DNA from: Malus domestica
Lineage: Eukaryota > Streptophyta > Magnoliopsida > Rosales > Rosaceae
Length of the DNA stretch: 64,000 bases
Direction: 5' to 3'
Assembly: GCF_042453785.1 (NCBI RefSeq)
Contig: NC_091671.1
Coordinates: 37,215,001-37,279,000, forward strand
Numbering within the stretch: the first letter of the stretch is position 1; each line of letters begins with the position of its first letter. Shown here piece by piece: positions 8,979 through 53,806 of the stretch. The translations under genes were made by a program, and so were the position numbers. Below the pieces are notes generated by a model. That model did no database searches. It worked only from the letters and a program-made list of their open reading frames with translations, and was not told the origin of the DNA.

Positions 8979-9392
8979 CTAAACACAATGAGCTAAGTAC
9001 AACGAAGTGCAAAGTTGAACTTTTAGATATGGAATTTCGGATTCCATAGACTCTTCAAGAGTCTCATTTGCATATAACGTATGGACGATCATGGGTATAC
9101 TCAAAGGTGACACATTCCGGGTGTAGTTCAACTCGTAGACCGAAATACCGTCAGAACAATGCTTCAACTTCAGGTCAAGGCATAAATGAGTTTTCCCAAG
9201 ATCCTTCATCTCAAATTCCATCTTCAGGTGCGAGGCTGTTTTCTCAAGCTCTTCCAGAGTCTTAATGAGATTCGTGTTAACGACATAAACTGTAACACTA
9301 GCAATTTGGAATAAGACTTCATAGTTTAACACGCAAGGGCATAATTCATATCCTTGACTGATCAAATAATCACTTAGATGGGTGTACCACAT
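8979..9392 (-). pseudogene. Copia reverse transcriptase remnant
   Basis: A 137-codon minus-strand frame contains MWYTHLSDYLISQGY, a degenerate catalytic box VYVVNTNLI (normally YVDD), EELEKTASHLKMEFEMKDLG and a recognisable LGKT..CL.L segment. These are hallmark motifs of copia RT. The catalytic Asp pair is lost (VN for DD), so the domain is inactive even apart from the frameshifts around it. Confidence 0.85.
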
Positions 9393-10919
9393 CCGTCGAA
9401 TTTTTCAATCCATAAGTGAACTCCTCAAAACGAGTTAAGAGGGTGTTCCGTGGTTTGGAACTATTTGAACCAGTCCATGTAATTCTTCGGGAACTTACAC
9501 GTAAATCTCCGTATTTATATCCCCATGGAGAAATACTAACCACATTTCATAATGCTGCTATCAATCACATGACGTTTTGAGAGAAACCTTGTGCCGTAAA
9601 GCGTGCATCATATCGCATTATTTCATTCATCTCATAACGTTTCCTTTCCCACTTGTAACTCAACAGGGTTACCTTGGGCAATGTAGGAACGACAGGTCCA
9701 ATACACACTTTGGTAAGGAATTTGACCTGGATTGTAACTTTAGTTGTCCAATCAGTTCTACGTTGTCACTTAATCAACGGAACATGGTTCGATCGTTGCA
9801 TTTCATTTATGTCGGTAGCTACCATATAAGTGAAAACATCATCGATGATAATCTCATTTCAATTCCATTTTCTCATCCAAACTAGTATACTGGACCAAGA
9901 ACTTCAAGTCTCGGGAGTAATCCGGATTAATCTCATGAGATGGAAATGATTTGAGACAGCGATTGAGTTTAGATTCATTGTTATGCCGTGTCTTCCTCTT
10001 CCTGGGAAGTGAATCCTACGAACCGAATGATATGTTGTGCTCCAGGCCAAGACATATTGATTGGTTATCCACCGGTGTACCGAACCGTCTAACAGGGGCG
10101 TCCAAACCGTCCAACATGGGCGGCACACCCTCCGGGGATGTTGACTGGACGTCCGTTAAGTACGTCTATCCTTGCAGGCATGTTTGCAGCTGGTATATGA
10201 TATCGTCACTTTAGCTAGATCAGAGGAATGCGTCTGGAGCAACATTCTGAAATCTAGAATTCGTCGCACTTGTTTATCACACTTGTGCGGTATGGGGATC
10301 GAGATGAGACATAGTGGGCAACGTCCATGCAAATTTGTGTTATTCTACAAGAATGTTGACTTTCTTATCTCCCCCTAACGGCTGGAAGACTATCTCATTA
10401 AAGTGACAACCCGTAAATAAGCGGTAAAGAGATTGTGTGCAAGGGCTCGAAGATAGCTAGTGTGAAGGAGAATCATGATCGACAAAAGATACATATCTTT
10501 CTTTGAAGACCCATGGTGGTACGTTGCGATGGCGCAACTTGGCACATGGAATGCGCACCCAAATGCGTAAATACGAAAGTCGTCAGGTTCGTACCCAGTA
10601 ACCAACTATAACGTCATATAGGTTGGGTGGTAATGGGCCTCAAGGCGGACCAACATAGTTGCGTGTAAGATTGCATAGTCCTAGGCAAAGACTGAAAACT
10701 TGGTACGTTTACCAAAATTCAGGCGATCATTTAAATTGCGCTTTATGATCGCTAGGCTAGGCTATTTGGGGTGAACATGGGAATGCGATGTTCAATTAAA
10801 AACCCAAAATGACATGCAATACTTTATCGAAAATCATCGATATAAACTCTCTAGCATTATCCAGTCTTCCAGACCTTAAGGGATAAGTAGGGTGGTAAAC
10901 CCTTAATCGGCCAAGAGGT

Positions 10920-15060: not shown

Positions 15061-15214
15061 GGGAACTTTAACGAAAATCATCTGGTACTATTCATTTTAA
15101 TGAAAAATCACATTTTTACATTAAAAAGTCAATCATTGGTACTATTCACATTACCCTTTATTTTGTCCTTATCATTAAAACTCAAAATTTTCAAGCCATT
15201 TTCATTAGTTTTCC
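15061..15214 (-). mobile_element. MITE family B copy 1
   Basis: The segment starts GGGAACTTTAACGAAAA and ends TTTTCATTAGTTTTCC, imperfect inverted ends. It matches, in opposite orientation, the copies at 23786-23933 and 36238-36390 over its full length (shared internal blocks such as GACAAAATAAATGGTAAAGTGAA). Confidence 0.75.
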
Positions 15215-16434
15215 TATTTTATAAACCATATAACGTATGATCGAATTATTCTTTAAATATTGATTAATATGTTTATTTTCTATTTGTGACACACAACATT
15301 TTTTGTGGATTTAATCTAAAGGATAATTCTAGGGAGGCCAAAATTGGAGATCAAATTTGCAAACCAAATAATGTTTGCCAATAATAAATAAGCACGTTAA
15401 TCAATACTAAGTAATAATCCAATCATCAACAACCACATCATGCGGTTTACAAAATTTGAATTAAAAATTTAGTCTCTAGCATTACTCTAATCTAAAATAT
15501 TGATTTACCTAGAATTTTCCTAAATTCATCATATATTTTCGGTTCATGATATGTTATTGGTCAACTAAAAACTTATCCTTTTGCTGCCTTGTGACCCTCC
15601 ACTGTCTTAAAGCAAATCAATCAGGCTCTTTAGGCCCTCTGGTCACTACTCCATTAATCCATCTCCTTTGAAGTATCACTACTGCAGCTAGCTATAATCT
15701 ATACAATGCAAAACATCCGGTACCAGTAGGCATCTATAGATGGGGAAAATCTTTGGTGAGATCAAATTTCCTCGTGTGAATGTCTTACTCAAAGCGTAAT
15801 TGTTTTCTCTCTCTCGCATAATATAATCTCACCTTTTTTATCTTTGCCCCCCTCTAACCAATTTTTCTCTTTTTTTAGGTAATTGCTTTATCTCATACAT
15901 ACTACTTTAAGATTTATAAACAGAACCTAATTAATTAGTAAGGCAGATTTGTAAGCAAGATACATGCTAAACTTGCTAATACGTATACCTACAAATTTAA
16001 CATAAGAAAATAGTACCATACGATATTGATGTTCCTGTAATTATCTTCTTCAAAATTTACATCAAAGTACCGACAGTTGTAATTTGAAACTCATAGGATA
16101 AGTGTTCTGAATAGGTGGCTAAAGTGAATTTTTATTTTTATTTTTTTGTGCTTTAATTTGTCATTTTCCACGCTACTTTAGAAAACTTTACGATGCATGG
16201 CAATCTTGATAGCCTATCTCACAACTCAACGTGGGAAAGGAATCGACATCTTTACATTGAGTTGAAAGACGCACAGTATTACTTGACTTTTGAATGAAAT
16301 ATACAGTGCATTTTTAATCATTAATTTTTATGCATTTTGGATCAGCTAGCTTTGCAAATTAAGGAAGAACATATGATGAAGGAAATAAAAGAGTATGGGC
16401 GGGCACTTCTTCGATCGTAAGATGATGCCGCCCC
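15215..16434. other. Intergenic, 3' of the CLE gene
   Basis: No gene was recognised. The 15310-15490 part (GGATAATTCTAGGGAGGCC... ending TAGTCTCTAGCATTACTC) has the look of a diverged MITE with weak inverted ends, which I cannot prove. Confidence 0.35.
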
Positions 16435-16761
16435 TTATGCTGAGGAATTGATAGAATTACTGATAGGATTTGCTCCTGAATGTACTTCATGCAACGCTTT
16501 CCTTTTGACATGATGACTTCCTTCGACAGATGATGAATAGTACAGCTGCTGATGACATGAAATACATCAAGAAATGCATGTGCGAAAGAGAAGAGAAACA
16601 TAATCCTAGTTTGTATGCTGTATGATCGGTCAGTAGTTACCTTGTCCCGAAAATTATTTGATGCTCCTCTTAATTTCTTAGTCTTGGTCTCCATATCTGA
16701 ACAAACACACGTTCATGTCAAGTAGTACTCATCAGAATATGTTTATTTTGTGTATGCGGGC

Positions 16762-16796
<35 letters not shown>

Positions 16797-16884
16797 CTTG
16801 TAGTTTTCTTGTGACCAAACTTGAGTGAGCAAACAGATCATGGGAGACTAGAAGGATTAGGAGAAAAAACAAATTCAAGTTCAT
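16435..16884 (-). CDS. CLE-family secreted signalling peptide precursor, TDIF-like
   Basis: I assembled three exons from clean splice sites: 16884-16797, 16696-16641 and 16548-16435 (GT..AG throughout, 85 residues; the last acceptor could also lie 3 bases further in, removing one Gln). Residues 1-19 form a signal peptide (MNLNLFFLLILLVSHDLFA). The middle is a basic variable region. Residues 68-79 are HEVHSGANPISN, preceded by a basic KRKAL. This closely resembles the TDIF dodecapeptide of CLE41/44 (HEVPSGPNPISN), but with Pro4 changed to His and Pro7 to Ala. A short tail NSINSSA follows. CLE peptides are cleaved from such precursors and bind leucine-rich-repeat receptor kinases; TDIF acts through PXY/TDR in the vascular cambium. 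Introns occur in CLV3/CLE40-type genes, while Arabidopsis TDIF genes are, to my knowledge, intronless. The function of this variant is unknown. Confidence 0.8.
16756..16796. repeat. GA and CAGA microsatellite at the CLE intron 1 donor
   Basis: On the minus strand intron 1 of the CLE gene begins GTCTGTCTGTCTGTCT and runs into (CT)n. The repeat therefore abuts the splice donor. Confidence 0.85.
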
Positions 16885-16939: not shown

Positions 16940-16970
16940 AAGAGAGAGAGAGAGAGGGAGAGAGAGAGAT
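16940..16970. repeat. GA-rich microsatellite in the CLE 5' leader
   Basis: An imperfect (GA)n tract lies about 55-85 bases upstream of the CLE start codon, inside the presumed 5' untranslated region (CT-rich on the sense strand). Confidence 0.75.
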
Positions 16971-17011: not shown

Positions 17012-17023
17012 GTTTTATATAGA
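17012..17023 (-). promoter_or_regulatory. Probable TATA box of the CLE gene
   Basis: The minus strand reads TCTATATAAAAC about 130 bases upstream of the CLE start codon, followed by the CT-rich leader. This is a good plant TATA match at a plausible distance. No experimental start site is known. Confidence 0.5.
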
Positions 17024-17888
17024 CGAGAAAAGATAGTAGTAGTACGACTACCAGAAGTGCACGCACACGCATGTGTGCATATGAACCTCATCCTTATATA
17101 TCACAGGAGAACTACTTATGTAGCAAGGGTACACTGCCACGTGACCTCTCATGCCAATGAAACGATGGCATATGAACCAAAACTTACACATATTTTTACT
17201 TGGCTCAAGACGTCACCGTGACAGTGTATATGTGCCATATAAGTCCTCCCATTGCAGGCTTCATTCAGGATCGATTCAAGTTTGATTGGTTGTTTCAGCC
17301 TTTGGTCAGGAATGTGAGTAGAGACGAAAAGAGGATGACTAGACCAACGTGTCGCATTTGGAAAATTATGCATGTAACAAGGACAATGCGACTGTGACCA
17401 AATGAAATAGGTGAAACTTGACAAGGAGTGATAAGTTTGGAACACCGCCAACTTAGTGTCTAAATTGCACGTAAGTGTCTTGTGGTTTTGTTTGTAAATG
17501 TCTTCAGCTGATCGTGTTTCTATCAGGACAGGATTTTCAATCAAACGCAACAAAAGCAAGCCAGAAATAGCCGATCAAAAGTGTGGCACACATTCAAGAA
17601 CCAACCAGCAACAAATCATGCATCCATAATCTTCCCACAAGCAAGAAGTCACAATCAAAATCAAAATGGAGCTCCGGAAATCACACGAAACACAATTTAA
17701 AGGTGAGAATCTATAAAACACAGATATGTTAATAGATATGCTTCTCGAATATGACGTTGATTTGAAAACAGCAATTCTTTGTTCTATGTTCTTCCTTATG
17801 ATGATCGGCCAATACCGTAGTTAACGTAGATAAAGGCATAGGACGTAACAACTAATTCGAATATATCCCTTTCAATCTATAGACTAAT
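17024..17888. other. Intergenic: CLE promoter side and AsnRS 3' region
   Basis: No gene is supported. The open frames at 17149-17559 (minus) and 17200-17397 (plus) overlap each other and resemble nothing I know. The part nearest 17889 is the 3' untranslated region of the downstream-ending tRNA synthetase gene. Confidence 0.4.
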
Positions 17889-23447: not shown

Positions 23448-23785
23448 TATGTTAATAACAAACTAATTTCCTTCCCATACAACATCAGTATCATATGAAG
23501 TGGCGTCGTATTTTTAACCCTTAGGTTAACTGGTGCGCCAAACCAGAGTCAATAACCTCAAAGAATACATTCGTGAGAGTTTAAACTCGGAATGAGAGTT
23601 CCAAATTTTTACTCCCTTTCCACTAGACCCCTTTTGAGGTTTATAACATATTATTTTATGTTATGCATTAATTATAAATGGATTCAAATATGAATCAAGA
23701 CAAATCCGATTTATTTTTAGGGCTAAAAAAACCACTATCAGTTGACAAAACACAAAGTATAAAAATGATAAAGAAATAAAATAAA

Positions 23786-23933
23786 GGAAAACTAATGAAA
23801 AAGACTTAAAAACTTTAAGTTTTAACGATAAGGACAAAATAAATGGTAAAGTGAATAGTACTATATTTTTTAGTGTAAAAATATGATTTTTCGTTAAAAT
23901 GAACAGTCCCGCAGACTTTTCGTTAAAATTCCC
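23786..23933 (+). mobile_element. MITE family B copy 2
   Basis: Begins GGAAAACTAATGAAAA and ends TTTTCGTTAAAATTCCC. It is co-linear with 36238-36390 and, inverted, with 15061-15214. Confidence 0.75.
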
Positions 23934-24159
23934 ATAAAATAAATGTTGACACCGAGAATTTGTATACGAGTAAAGTAGACAATTAGCTTTTTTCTTCTCT
24001 TCCACAATGTTTGGTCTGAATGCTGTGAGTACTAAATACCGTCCCCACCATATCTGGATGCTCTGAATTTGCTCATATTCGGTTCATATAACCACTGGCT
24101 TCCGGAGAGAATGTATTCCTCCAGAGGAGCATCGCATAGAGTGCGAGTGCTATAGGGCG

Positions 24160-35581: not shown

Positions 35582-36237
35582 TGTTGTCGAGGTTTTGAGA
35601 ATTCTCGGGGGTTTTGAGAATTCTTGGGGTTTATTTCCGAAAAACCTTAAAACTCTCGCTGTGTCTGGTTTTTGGGAAGAAAAAAACAGCGGTTGTTTTG
35701 AGTGACCGCTGTCAACTAACGGTTGGTACTGTTGCTTCTGTGTGTTCCACTTTGTGCTTTGAGATGGGTGATGATCCACTGCTTTGCGGAGTACTTTCGT
35801 TTCTGAACCCAAACGCGCCGTTTCGGGCTTTTTTTTTATAAAATGCTTAATTGCGCAAAGTTAAGCTGTGTTTGGGTTTTCGCATTACTAAAGAGTTTTA
35901 ATCACAAATCATCCCTTATGTTTGGCTTTTTGTACGACTCTTACGCACTTCTTTTTTTAGTACACTGATATTTTTACATTAAAAGGACGGAGAGTTTGGC
36001 TAAGCCACACAATAGGCAAATTTGGTATCGAATTCGCTATCCACAAGATTTGAACTTAAGACATCTCACTTTTAAGCGAAAAAGAATATCACCATATCGT
36101 AGTACTGAATGGTCACACACTCTTGTTTAATCTTGTTCATTATTTTTGTTTAATTTAGTCAATTCAATGGTTATAAGTAAAGAGTTGTTTGTGAGATGTA
36201 AAAGAAATTAAAAATCATCTCCCTTGATTTTTTTAAA
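35582..36237. other. SH2-gene promoter side
   Basis: Upstream region of the minus-strand gene. No other gene is seen. Confidence 0.4.
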
Positions 36238-36390
36238 GGAAAACTAATGAAAAGCGCTTGAAAACTTTGAGTTTTAACGACAAGGACAAAATAAATGGTA
36301 AAGTGAATAATACCATGATTGACTTTTTAGAATAAAAATGTGATTTTTCGTTAAAGTGAACAATACCGAAAGCTTTTCGTTAAAATTTCC
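36238..36390 (+). mobile_element. MITE family B copy 3
   Basis: Begins GGAAAACTAATGAAAA and ends TTTTCGTTAAAATTTCC. It is co-linear with 23786-23933. Confidence 0.75.
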
Positions 36391-41100: not shown

Positions 41101-44100
41101 ACTTAATGCCAGCCCCTATAAAAATCTGCACTCGACGGAGCTTCAGAAATCGAAGAGGCGCCTGCTCAGAAATCGAAGAGGCGTTTGCTTTCTCAAAAGC
41201 TGGGCTGCTTAGAGATCACGAGGGTTGATCTCAGAAATCGAAGAGGCGTTTGCTTTCTCAAAAGTTGGGCTGCTCAAAGACCTCGAAGGCTGATCTCAGA
41301 AATCGAAGAGGCGCTCGCTTTCTCAAAAGCTGGGCTCCTCAGAGACCACGAGGGCCGATCTCAGAAATCGAAGAGGCACCTACTTTTCCAGCCTTGTCAG
41401 CACCTGTCACACGCACACTCAGCTTTGCGGAAATTATGGGCATTCTGTCGAAGACTTCTAGGGAAGTAGAAAACACATGAATCTTACTGTTCAATCACCC
41501 ACTTCCCACACGCAACAATAGCTCATGGGTACCACAGAAAACTTTGCCAAAGTTCTCTGCCAAAGTTGAGCACGTGAAGCTTGCAGCTCCCACTACATCG
41601 CTCTGACCAAGAAGGGTAAAAGAATAGCAAAGAAACAGCACTAACAAAGTTTAGACCCATAAATTTTGAAGGTCTAGCTACCATATTATTACCCACAAGG
41701 GTAAAGGAACAGTACCACTGCTGGATAATTGGAAAGTCCCTGTGTGTCAACCTCTGTGCTTTGTGGCAAGGTAGACTAGCAAACATGCCCAACCTTTACT
41801 CATATTCGAGAAAACACTCCCAATAAGATTGCTTGCTCCAAAATCGAAGAGGCACCGTCCTCCTAATCTCGAGAGCCAGACTCCCAACATGACTACTTTC
41901 TTAAAAATCGAAGAGAGGGTAAAGGAACAGTACCATTGCTGGATAATTGGAAAGTCTCTGTGTGTCAACCTCTGTGCTTCGTGGCAAGGTAGACTAGCAA
42001 ACATGCCCAACCTTTACTCACATTCGAGAAAACACTCTCAACAAGATTGCTTGCTCCAAAATCGAAGAGGCACCGCCCTCCGAATCTCGAGAGCCAGACT
42101 CCCAACATGATTACTTTCTCAAAAATCGAAGAGACACTGCTCCCCGAATCTTCGAGAGCCAGACCCCCAGCATGATTGCTTTCTCAAAAATCGATGAGGC
42201 ATCGTTCTCCGAATCAATCGAAGAGGCGCTCGCTTTCTCAAAAGCTGGGCTGCTCAGAGACCACGAGGGCCGATCTCAGAAATCGAAGCGGCACCTACTT
42301 TTCTAGCCTTGTCAGCACCTGTCACACGCACACTCAGCTTTGCAGAAATTATGGGCATTCTGTCGAAGACTTCTGGTGAAGTAGAAAGCACATGAATCTT
42401 ACTGTTCAATCACCCACTTCCCACACGCAACAATAGCTCATGGGTACCACAGATAACTTTGCCAAAGTTCTCTGCCAAAGTTCTCTGCCAAAGTTGAGCA
42501 CGTGAAGCTTGCAGCTCCCACTACATCGCTCTGACCAAGAAAGGTAAAAGAATAGCAAAGAAACAACACTAACAAAGTTTAGACACATAAATTTTGAAGG
42601 TCTAGCTACCATATTATTACCCACAAGGGTAAAGGAACAGTACCACTGCTGGATAATTGGAAAGTCCCTGTTTGTCAACCTCTGTGCTTCGTGGCAAGGT
42701 AGACTAGCAAACATGCCCAACCTTTACTCACATTCGAGAAAACACTCCCAACAAGATTGCTTGCTCCAAAATCGAAGAGGCACCGTCCTCCGAATCTCGA
42801 GAGCCAGACTCCCAACATGACTACTTTCTCAAAATCGAAGAGAGGGTAAAGGAACAGTACCATTGCTGGATAATTGGAAAGTCCCTGTGTGTCAACCTTT
42901 GTGCTTCGTGGCAAGGTAGACTAGCAAACATGCCCAACCTTTACTCACATTCGAGACAACACTCCCAACAAGATTGCTTGCTCCAAAATCGAAGAGGCAC
43001 CGCCCTCCGAATCTCGAGAGCCAGACTCCCAACATGATTACTTCCTCAAAAATCGAAGAGACACTGCTCTCCGAATCTCGAGAGCCAGACCCCCAGCATG
43101 ATTGCTTTCTCAAAAATCGAAGAGGCATCGTTCTCCGAATCTCGAGAGCCAGATACCACAGACCACTTTTTCAAAGTACTCTGACAGAGTTAAAACATGT
43201 GAAACTGGCAGCTCCCACTACCGTGCTATGACCAAGCAGGGTAAAGGAATAGCATTACTACTTGTTAGGGAGACTCCTATATATGTCGACCTCCATCCCC
43301 AACGGACAGGCAGACCTGCAAAAATGCTCAACCCTTCATCATATCTGAGAGGGCACTCCCAACGAAGCCTTTCGAAATATTCAGCTTTCTTTCCCCCCGA
43401 TAATACCTCTGCAAACAAGCTATACTAGAGCAAGAATATCTCATATCATCAGGGTTAAAAGCAAGAGTATCCCATATCATGCTTTTTCCCTGTCTTTTCC
43501 TTTGGCCTTGTTTTTACCTGCAAGACAAGGAGAAAGAGAGCAATCAGTCAGCACTTGGAATCAAGCTTCCAGCCAGGAACTGACTGCCTGGAACCCCTTA
43601 CCTGATTACTTACCTGGCATTGCTCTCGAGTACTCATCTTCAACATCTTATGTTTCCAGGGAAGATTCCGCATCTGCTTGAGGAACAGATAGGGCAAGTG
43701 CGAAGGATACAAGGAAGCATGTGGAGACAAGCGTAACAGCACACGTGCCGATACATCCATTACTCTGTCAAAAGCAAAAGTATCCCATATCAGCAGGGTG
43801 GAACGTACTCTAGATTTGATGGACTTGTTTTGACCCTCAAATTCTTCAGCCGGCCTTATACTCTGGAGGAAACCAGAAAACCCTCCAGCTCAGTTCAAGA
43901 ATAAGCCTGTGGAAAGTTACTTCTTCAAAAGCAAAAGTATCTCATATCATCTCTTCTCATTTTTCTTCTCTTTATCCTTCATGCTGCTGCAAGATGGGGA
44001 GAACGTGAACAATCAGTCGGAGCTCTGATTGCTTACCTTGTCTATCACCTCTTTCAGCAACCCCCTAGCTCGGCGACTTGGAGGACTCCTACTACATGGT

Positions 44101-52266: not shown

Positions 52267-53125
52267 ATGAGTTCTTCACCACTCAAGATTAAAGGTTTGT
52301 TGGGAATGCTTACAATTCGGTTACAAGATGATAATTTTGCTAAGTGGTCTTTTCAATTTCAATCTGTCTTGGAAGGATATGATTTTTTTACTACTTTGAT
52401 GGTACCAATATTTGTCCTTCTAAGTATGTAATGTCTTTGGAGAGTGGAGTGACAAAGGAAATAACTGCAGTGTATCGTGAGTGGATAAAGACCGATAAGG
52501 CATTACTTAGTCTTCTGATTGCAACACTTGGCGATGAGGCAATTGAATATGTAGACAGCTTGGACACAACTTACTGATAGGTATGTTTTTGTGTCAATGG
52601 CAAGGATAAATCATCTCAAGACTAAGCTACACATAATCAAGAAAGAAACTGATTCAATAGAGAAAATATTTGCTAAGGCTTAAACATTTGAAGGATCAAT
52701 TACAAGCTGCAGGAGAACATATTTCAAAGAATGATCTGATTGTTGCTGCCTTAGTTGGCTTACCATCTGAGTATAACATGATAAGACCTGTGATTGTGGC
52801 AAGAGAGTTGCCTATAACTTTAAAGGAATTTCATGCACAACTACTAAGTGCAGAAAAGATAGCTGAAGAATATCAAACTACAATGCAGTTTCCAATGACA
52901 AGCATGCTTTCTCAGGGTGAATCTTTTGCCGGTGGAGCTCAAAAACAATTTTACCAAGGGGAGTCTTCTGTAACAGGTGCTAACAAGTCGTTTTATCAAG
53001 GAGAGGGTTCATATGGTTCTAGTTCCAATTCTCAAAATTATAATGGTGTTGGATTTGTGGGGCAATATCAAAGGAACTCTAGCAATGGCAATGGTGGAAA
53101 TGGATCTAATGGGGAGAACCACTTT
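52267..53125 (+). pseudogene. Copia gag remnant
   Basis: Reads MSSSPLKIKGLLGMLTIRL, NFAKWSFQFQSVLEGYD, then after a frameshift KALLSLLIATLGDEAIEYV, then LKHLKDQLQAAG and LIVAALVGLPSEYNMIRP. This is the usual gag of plant copia elements (gag-polypeptide/UBN2 type). It ends in a Gly/Ser/Asn-rich segment where the zinc knuckle would start, and then stops abruptly at the junction with RNase H sequence. Confidence 0.8.
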
Positions 53126-53806
53126 CATATGGTACTGACTTCCGGAGTCTCATATAGGCTATGCAATATTATTATTTTTTCACTAGGTCTGACAATGCTT
53201 TCGCACTTAACCAAGTTTGTCAGTTCATGCATTCTCCTACAAGTGCTCATTGGGCTGCGGTAAAGAGAATACTAGGTTACTTAAAAGCCACTCACGATCA
53301 CGGCTTTGTGTATAAGCCAAGTCCTCTTACCATTAGTGTGTGTGTCAACGCAAATTAAGCTGGTGATCCTGATGACTGGAACTCCACTGGTGGTTACTGC
53401 ATCTTTCTTGGAGATAATTTAATCTCATGGAGCTCCAAGAAACAGTGGGTGTGTCTCGAAGCGGAATATCGTCAACTTGCATATACTTTTTTTCTTTTCT
53501 TTTTCTTCCAACTTGCATATACTTCAATTGCTTCTCTTGGTTTCAAAACCTTTTCCGAGATCTACACCTCTCTCTTGATCCTCCACTTTTGTGCTATGAT
53601 AATATCAGTGCTCTTGCTTTTGCTTCTAATCCTGTCTATCAAGCACGCACGCGCCATGTCGAAGTGGATTATCATTACATTAATGTCACTCGCAAGAAGA
53701 TTGTTGTTGACTGTGTTGCTTCAGCTAATCAGCTTGTTGATCTTTTGACCAAAGGTTTATCCTCTTCACCATTTACCAACCCGGTTTCCAAGCTTTCCGT
53801 TCTCTA
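53118..53806 (+). pseudogene. Copia RT-end and RNase H remnant
   Basis: Reads YGTDFRSLI, NQVCQFMHSPTSAHWAAVKR, ILGYLKATHDHGFVYKPS, GDPDDWNSTGGYCIFLGDN, LISWSSKK, LSLDPPLLCYDNISALAFAS and ARTRHVEVDYHYI: the end of RT and the RNase H domain of a copia element. Stops interrupt it. A pyrimidine tract flanked by a duplicated CAACTTGCATATAC (about 53471 and 53507) interrupts the domain. Confidence 0.85.

Follow-up and report, generated by a model that had tools for sequence, protein, structure and literature searches.

A predicted three-exon H-type CLE gene of apple encoding a TDIF-like dodecapeptide with His4 and Ala7

The 64,000 nt stretch of apple (Malus domestica) DNA analysed here (the window, C11:37215001-37279000) is predicted to harbour a genuine gene of three exons whose product is a CLE prepropeptide of the H type (His1). 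Its dodecapeptide, HEVHSGANPISN, has His4 and Ala7 in place of the two hydroxylated prolines of TDIF and shares the other ten residues with this wood-controlling hormone. We consider it an evenly balanced proposition that this real three-exon gene encodes a PXY-class agonist independent of prolyl hydroxylation; the further proposal that HEVHSGANPISN is a natural hydroxylation-free TDIF and PXY-class ligand, which both copies have retained since the segment was duplicated, is more tentative. If true, such a ligand would escape prolyl hydroxylases and arabinosyltransferases, vascular signalling would gain a modification-independent branch, and a hydroxylation-free cambium regulator would be of practical interest in a woody plant. 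Besides TDIF and CLE46, the gene may also point to a further H-type CLE lineage, one with introns, which Arabidopsis may lack.

Structure of the predicted gene and its precursor

The three-exon gene and 85-residue precursor proposed in the first-pass annotation were borne out, on the minus strand and with two GT..AG introns (Table 1). The 85 codons read, in order, MNLNLFFLLILLVSHDLFAHSS..., a basic KRKAL stretch, HEVHSGANPISN, SINSSA and the stop codon, and display the layout of a CLE prepropeptide, with a leader (by hydropathy and a cleavage rule), a variable domain and the CLE motif near the C-terminus. The leader, previously annotated as a signal peptide, is indeed signal-peptide-like: its hydrophobic core averages 3.25 in hydropathy, and a simple rule (not SignalP) places a cleavage site with small residues after residue 21. 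The two splice donors match 7/9 and 8/9 positions of what we take to be the donor consensus, with the intron-1 donor being the weaker one. The T content of exon 2 (0.20) and exon 3 (0.27) is below that of the introns (0.36 and 0.37), that of exon 1 (0.38) is not, and the A+T content of intron 1 is not above that of the exons. CT-type microsatellites are located on both sides of exon 1, at 16760-16798 (intron 1, from the donor) and 16941-16969 (5′ leader), and both are longer on contig C3, which carries a duplicate of the gene; at the position of the TATA-like box, the C3 copy reads CTATCTCAAAC.

Table 1. Features of the predicted CLE gene (window coordinates)
Feature	Position	Strand	Description
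Whole gene	16884-16435	minus	3 exons, predicted 85-aa precursor
Exon 1 (88 nt)	16797..16884	minus	Start codon, then RKLQ preceded by a signal-peptide-like leader (up to about residue 21)
Intron 1 (100 nt, phase 1, GT..AG)	16697..16796	minus	Starts within a (GTCT)n/(CT)n microsatellite
Exon 2 (56 nt)	16641..16696	minus	Part of the variable domain
Intron 2 (92 nt, phase 0, GT..AG)	16549..16640	minus	Acceptor is CAGCAG
Exon 3, including stop	16435..16548	minus	QLYYSSSVEGSHHVKRKAL, CLE motif, SINSSA and stop
CLE dodecapeptide HEVHSGANPISN	16456..16491	minus	C3 counterpart is HEVHSGANPVSN
His4 codon CAT (TDIF Pro4/Hyp4)	16480..16482	minus	One base off a Pro codon; CAT also in C3
Ala7 codon GCA (TDIF Pro7/Hyp7)	16471..16473	minus	One base off a Pro codon; GCA also in C3
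C-terminal extension SINSSA	16438..16455	minus	SINSSA also in the C3 copy
TATA-like box TATATAAAAC	17012..17021	minus	137 nt upstream of the ATG; consensus match only

The match of HEVHSGANPISN to TDIF (score 51, 10/12 residues identical) is far above chance, as the next-best word scored 27 among the 65,317 stop-free twelve-residue words in the six frames of the window, and the best score and identity in 40 Markov-shuffled windows were 40 and 7/12, respectively. The TDIF-like dodecapeptide of the first-pass annotation, with His4, Ala7 and ten TDIF residues, is upheld. Taken alone, the gene model is moderately supported. Loose splice rules allowed for 178 models from two ATGs, and strict rules left the model described here and a CAGCAG-acceptor variant that is one residue shorter; when the upstream DNA was shuffled with the last exon fixed, some strict model was obtained in 10/100 shuffles, and a strict model whose leader averaged ≥3.0 in hydropathy (3.25 in the window gene) in 3/100.

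Two other reading frames were rejected. An alternative 5′ exon, with an ATG at 17072 and a leader just as hydrophobic, is in frame when the loose rules are applied, but its C3 frame stops after MRVNALLHVHPQLQ. A 117-aa frame at 16362-16712, corresponding to exon 2 read into intron 2, was set aside because it lacks a CLE motif; its C3 counterpart is also open over a long stretch, with the stop coming earlier.

Searches with Pfam gave a malarial ETRAMP family as sole match to the precursor (E 0.11, below the cut-off), comparison of the precursor with PDB sequences gave nothing informative, none of the pattern matches in bacterial (135) and viral (35) contigs was confirmed, and Rfam gave no matches to the window at the gathering score. 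Neither HEVHSGANPISN nor near variants of it, for example HEVHSGPNPISN, occurred in 5.39 million open-access texts (supplements, images and subscription papers being outside this scope), and further motif variants were absent as well, with one paper matching via the motif of AtCLE46 itself; no Rosaceae CLE survey was among the open-access matches listed. Elsewhere in the window, copia-type retrotransposon-like fragments are present at 8982-9404 and 52661-53260, with matches to RVT_2 (below the family cut-off) and Retrotran_gag_2. Open frames at 41122-43228 repeat the same phrases at a higher G+C content, which suggests a tandem repeat, and a 150-aa open frame at 29935-30384 matches the SH2 domain, which is rare in plants, weakly and below the cut-off.

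Duplicate and H-type relatives in the apple genome

A search for a duplicate across the 651-Mb genome (19 contigs) matched the precursor to C3:33718154-33718631, in a gene reading ...KRKALHEVHSGANPVSNSINSSA... with the exon layout and all splice sites of the window gene. The motif of this copy has Val at position 10, and specifies His4 and Ala7 by codons identical to those of the window gene, so the loss of both prolines would most simply predate the duplication. The flanks are collinear, with 85% identity over a 2.5-kb alignment reaching into an asparaginyl-tRNA synthetase gene, and collinearity extends to a pfkB-type kinase gene. The exons of the two copies differ by two indels, one of 6 nt (exon 1, in frame) and one of 3 nt, and those in the introns measure 34, 7, 6 and 1 nt (intron 1) and 11, 7 and 4 nt (intron 2). 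With shared exons and splice sites, exon indels that are multiples of three and intron indels that mostly are not, the C3 copy is stronger evidence for the gene model than the splice-rule tests.

Divergence between the copies was 5.6% for exon 3 and 8.0% for exon 1, compared with 15-16% for the introns, 19.6% for exon 2 and 28% for the downstream DNA. Exon 2, which lies in the variable domain and is 56 nt long in both copies, is thus conserved no better than the introns. The window stop codon is missing in C3 through a 22-nt length difference, which is possible in either direction, and the C3 precursor (C3:33718082-33718631) continues for 23 residues past SINSSA, with a hydrophobic stretch, MTLIFFIIYVSFFAY, at its end; the C3 copy may be impaired. 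A repeat some 155 nt long is dispersed over three places in the window, at 15061-15215, 23780-23934 and 36236-36390, and occurs once in the C3 stretch, with the window copies being 84-89% identical to the C3 copy.

By Nei-Gojobori counts, dN/dS between the two copies was 0.59 (85 codons) or 0.67 (84 codons) for the whole precursor, the latter being indistinguishable from neutral (P 0.43). A Ka/Ks comparison of the CLE motif, as proposed in the first-pass annotation, gave a synonymous excess that was not significant for the motif stretch alone (P 0.13), and it was exon 3 as a whole that showed a dN/dS of 0.13 (2 nonsynonymous and 4 synonymous changes, binomial P 0.026), versus 1.45 for the preceding part (15 nonsynonymous and 3 synonymous changes; Fisher P 0.038, on small counts and with a split picked after viewing the data). 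As a yardstick, two duplicate pairs of canonical TDIF genes had whole-precursor dN/dS values of 1.03 and 0.69, which indicates that a loose precursor is normal.

At least ten H-type loci were found in the genome, comprising four TDIF genes, the window/C3 pair and four CLE46-type loci. The TDIF genes, located on C5 and C10, all have HEVPSGPNPISN as their exact motif, within one open frame that ends at Asn12 or one residue beyond, and all four are intronless, in line with what the first-pass annotation stated for Arabidopsis. The CLE46-type loci carry HKHPSGPNPIGN (C1), HKIPSRPKPIGN (C7), HKTPSGPNPVGN (C3:8356608) and HKTPSRPNPVGN (C11:9630762), with a whole model for the C1 gene and the last exon only for the other three. 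As modelled, the C1 gene has three exons of similar size to those of the window gene, intron phases 1 and 0, and an 86-aa product with a C-terminal extension. Two of the four CLE46-type loci have Arg at Gly6, namely C7:27528574 (which also has Lys8 and has lost Asn8) and C11:9630762, and keep Pro4 and Pro7; the window pair displays the reverse pattern, with Pro4 and Pro7 lost, and Gly6 and Asn8 kept. Another sequence, C17:12209882 (KHNGPSGPNPFGSQ, E 1.13), was left out of the count as too poor a match, and assignment of the window gene as CLE46 orthologue was dropped upon finding the closer CLE46 match on C1. Since the TDIF genes are separate and intronless, and the CLE46-type loci are also separate, the window gene is, on these comparisons, best classed as a third kind of H-type CLE, which is intron-bearing.

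Receptor recognition without Pro4 and Pro7

We infer the expression, processing, receptor and effect of HEVHSGANPISN as follows: the precursor would be secreted and cleaved before His1, SINSSA would be trimmed (or tolerated) to release HEVHSGANPISN, and this TDIF analogue, not hydroxylatable at positions 4 and 7, would bind a receptor kinase of the PXY/TDR class, acting as an agonist independent of prolyl hydroxylation. The TDIF receptor-contact residues His1, Glu2, Val3, Gly6, Asn8, Ile10 and Asn12 are all kept in HEVHSGANPISN, which makes PXY/TDR-class binding the most likely.

The passages cited here differ on the importance of the two positions. The crystal structure of TDR with TDIF shows Hyp4 exposed to solvent and the hydroxyl of Hyp7 unrecognised, with the rest of Hyp7 making van der Waals contacts (PMC4979064). 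Calorimetry showed no significant effect on TDR binding of Ala at Hyp4, Ser5 or Hyp7, while His1, Val3, Gly6, Asn8, Ile10 and Asn12 were needed and Glu2 weakly so (PMC5383425), and a quoted alanine scan has positions 2, 5, 7, 10 and 11 as neutral (PMC8496505). Conversely, position 4 is listed among the sites where a change reduces or abolishes function (PMC7552357), and a 2025 review calls Hyp4 and Hyp7 essential, with Hyp7 to Ala disrupting binding (PMC12489290). The substitutions in these passages are single Ala changes at 4 and 7, with His4 or a double change absent from them. With the literature at odds on Hyp4/Hyp7 in receptor recognition (PMC4979064 and PMC5383425 versus PMC12489290), a natural peptide without both would be a ready-made test. 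The probability that two random changes both fall within the tolerated set is 0.09-0.15, and 0.015 for exactly positions 4 and 7, a pair chosen after the fact; the pair falls only within the calorimetry sets, as the quoted bioassay set lacks position 4. With regard to the C-terminal extension, a Selaginella H-type peptide extended with SLPG is described as active in Arabidopsis, and both this peptide and TDIF as without effect in Selaginella itself (PMC4659896, in the passage cited).

Against agonist activity stand the literature naming position 4 or 7 as important, the C3 copy with its lack of the window stop, hydrophobic tail and Val10, and the near-neutral dN/dS of the whole precursor. Next after a PXY-class ligand we rank a functional H-type peptide that is read by a different receptor (a kinase of the PXL or BAM type) or has a role of its own, with His4 and Ala7 shifting specificity off PXY, which is possible but rather doubtful. 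The gene layout is that of the CLE46-type gene, AtCLE46 does not bind TDR (PMC4979064, PMC5383425) and GmCLE13 is not regarded as a true TDIF (PMC4526924), but the failure of AtCLE46 is put down to E2K, V3H, I10T and S11G (PMC5383425), and at all four positions the window peptide has the TDIF residue. An antagonist, occupying the receptor and failing to recruit the co-receptor, was suggested in the first-pass annotation and would fit the retention of the anchor residues around an altered central stretch, and a switchgrass TDIF-like peptide with antagonist-like effect is on record (PMC8496505). We consider this improbable, because Ala at 4 or 7 had no significant effect on TDR binding and the switchgrass peptide has His12 where the window peptide has Asn12; the cited passages are also without antagonism from changes at 4 or 7.

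The suggestion of a decaying paralogue, with an inactive peptide, could build on the loss of two conserved prolines, the missing stop in C3, the dN/dS values (near 0.6 overall and 1.45 before exon 3) and the weaker, microsatellite-embedded donor of intron 1. For the window copy it is nevertheless unlikely, as frame, splice sites and motif are intact in both copies with His4 and Ala7 shared, exon 3 diverged by 5.6% versus 15-16% in the introns, and the exon indels are of 6 and 3 nt; among neutral draws carrying the same number of changes, 61% would contain a stop, and two of the four CLE46-type copies display the opposite pattern of residue loss. That there is no gene and the frames are open by chance is by far the least probable reading: strict-rule models do arise in one of ten shuffles and the base compositions of exon 1 and intron 1 do not differ in the direction expected, but the 10/12 motif and a collinear duplicate with exon indels in multiples of three both speak against it. 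An agonist for a PXY-class receptor is therefore the reading that we prefer.

Relation to known CLE systems

The first-pass annotation likened the two introns to those of CLV3/CLE40, and the number of introns stands, whereas the closest layout tested is that of the CLE46-type C1 gene, with phases 1 and 0. The CLV3/CLE40 motif, which we take to be defined by Arg1 and His11, differs from that of the window peptide, with His1 and Ser11. CLE45 (RRVRRGSDPIHN, the first 11 residues from the literature and the last one assumed) is an R-type peptide that has neither Pro4 nor Pro7, like the window peptide, and hence the absence of both is not unique among CLEs. Its receptors are BAM3 and SKM1/2.

Two introns are also described for CLV3/CLE40 (PMC5570945), and the same source, as far as cited, counts four His1 peptides in Arabidopsis, the three TDIFs and CLE46. 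The window gene resembles the TDIF genes (CLE41/CLE44; CLE42) in its His1 dodecapeptide, 10/12 identity and hydrophobic leader, and differs from them by P4H and P7A relative to HEVPSGPNPISN, by two introns and by a C-terminal extension; TDIF genes of soybean and bean are likewise described as intronless (PMC4526924). With the CLE46-type genes it shares three exons, phases 1 and 0 and a C-terminal extension, with the C1 product of 86 aa being of similar length, but its dodecapeptide is just 6/12 identical to that of AtCLE46, and has Glu2, Val3 and Ser11 where the CLE46 motif (HKHPSGPNPTGN-like) has Lys2 and Gly11.

The nearest published description is that of soybean GmCLE13 and its bean orthologue PvCLE13, as compared by description only, with residues 4 and 7 outside the comparison. 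GmCLE13 has 86 aa, His1, a predicted intron and a C-terminal extension (PMC4526924), all of which fit the window gene, and the cited passages place both legume genes in the TDIF group with a divergent CLE domain and no synteny with TDIF genes, judging them not to be true TDIFs (PMC4526924). Group III CLEs are described as having Ser11 (PMC4526924), which AtCLE46 lacks, and GmCLE13 would share it with the window peptide if the group III rule applies to it; a three-species tree pairs AtCLE46 with CLE1 and not with CLE13 (PMC4526924), and both points count for grouping the window gene with GmCLE13. Against this grouping count the high similarity of the GmCLE13 CLE domain to that of AtCLE46 (PMC4526924) and its description as putative CLE46 orthologue, with no Medicago or Lotus counterpart (PMC5570945), and we treat the link as a lead. 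Finally, switchgrass PvTDIFL4 (HQVPSGANPDSN, PMC8496505) has an H-type motif with a natural Ala7, like the window peptide, and differs from it in keeping Pro4 and in having Gln2 and Asp10.
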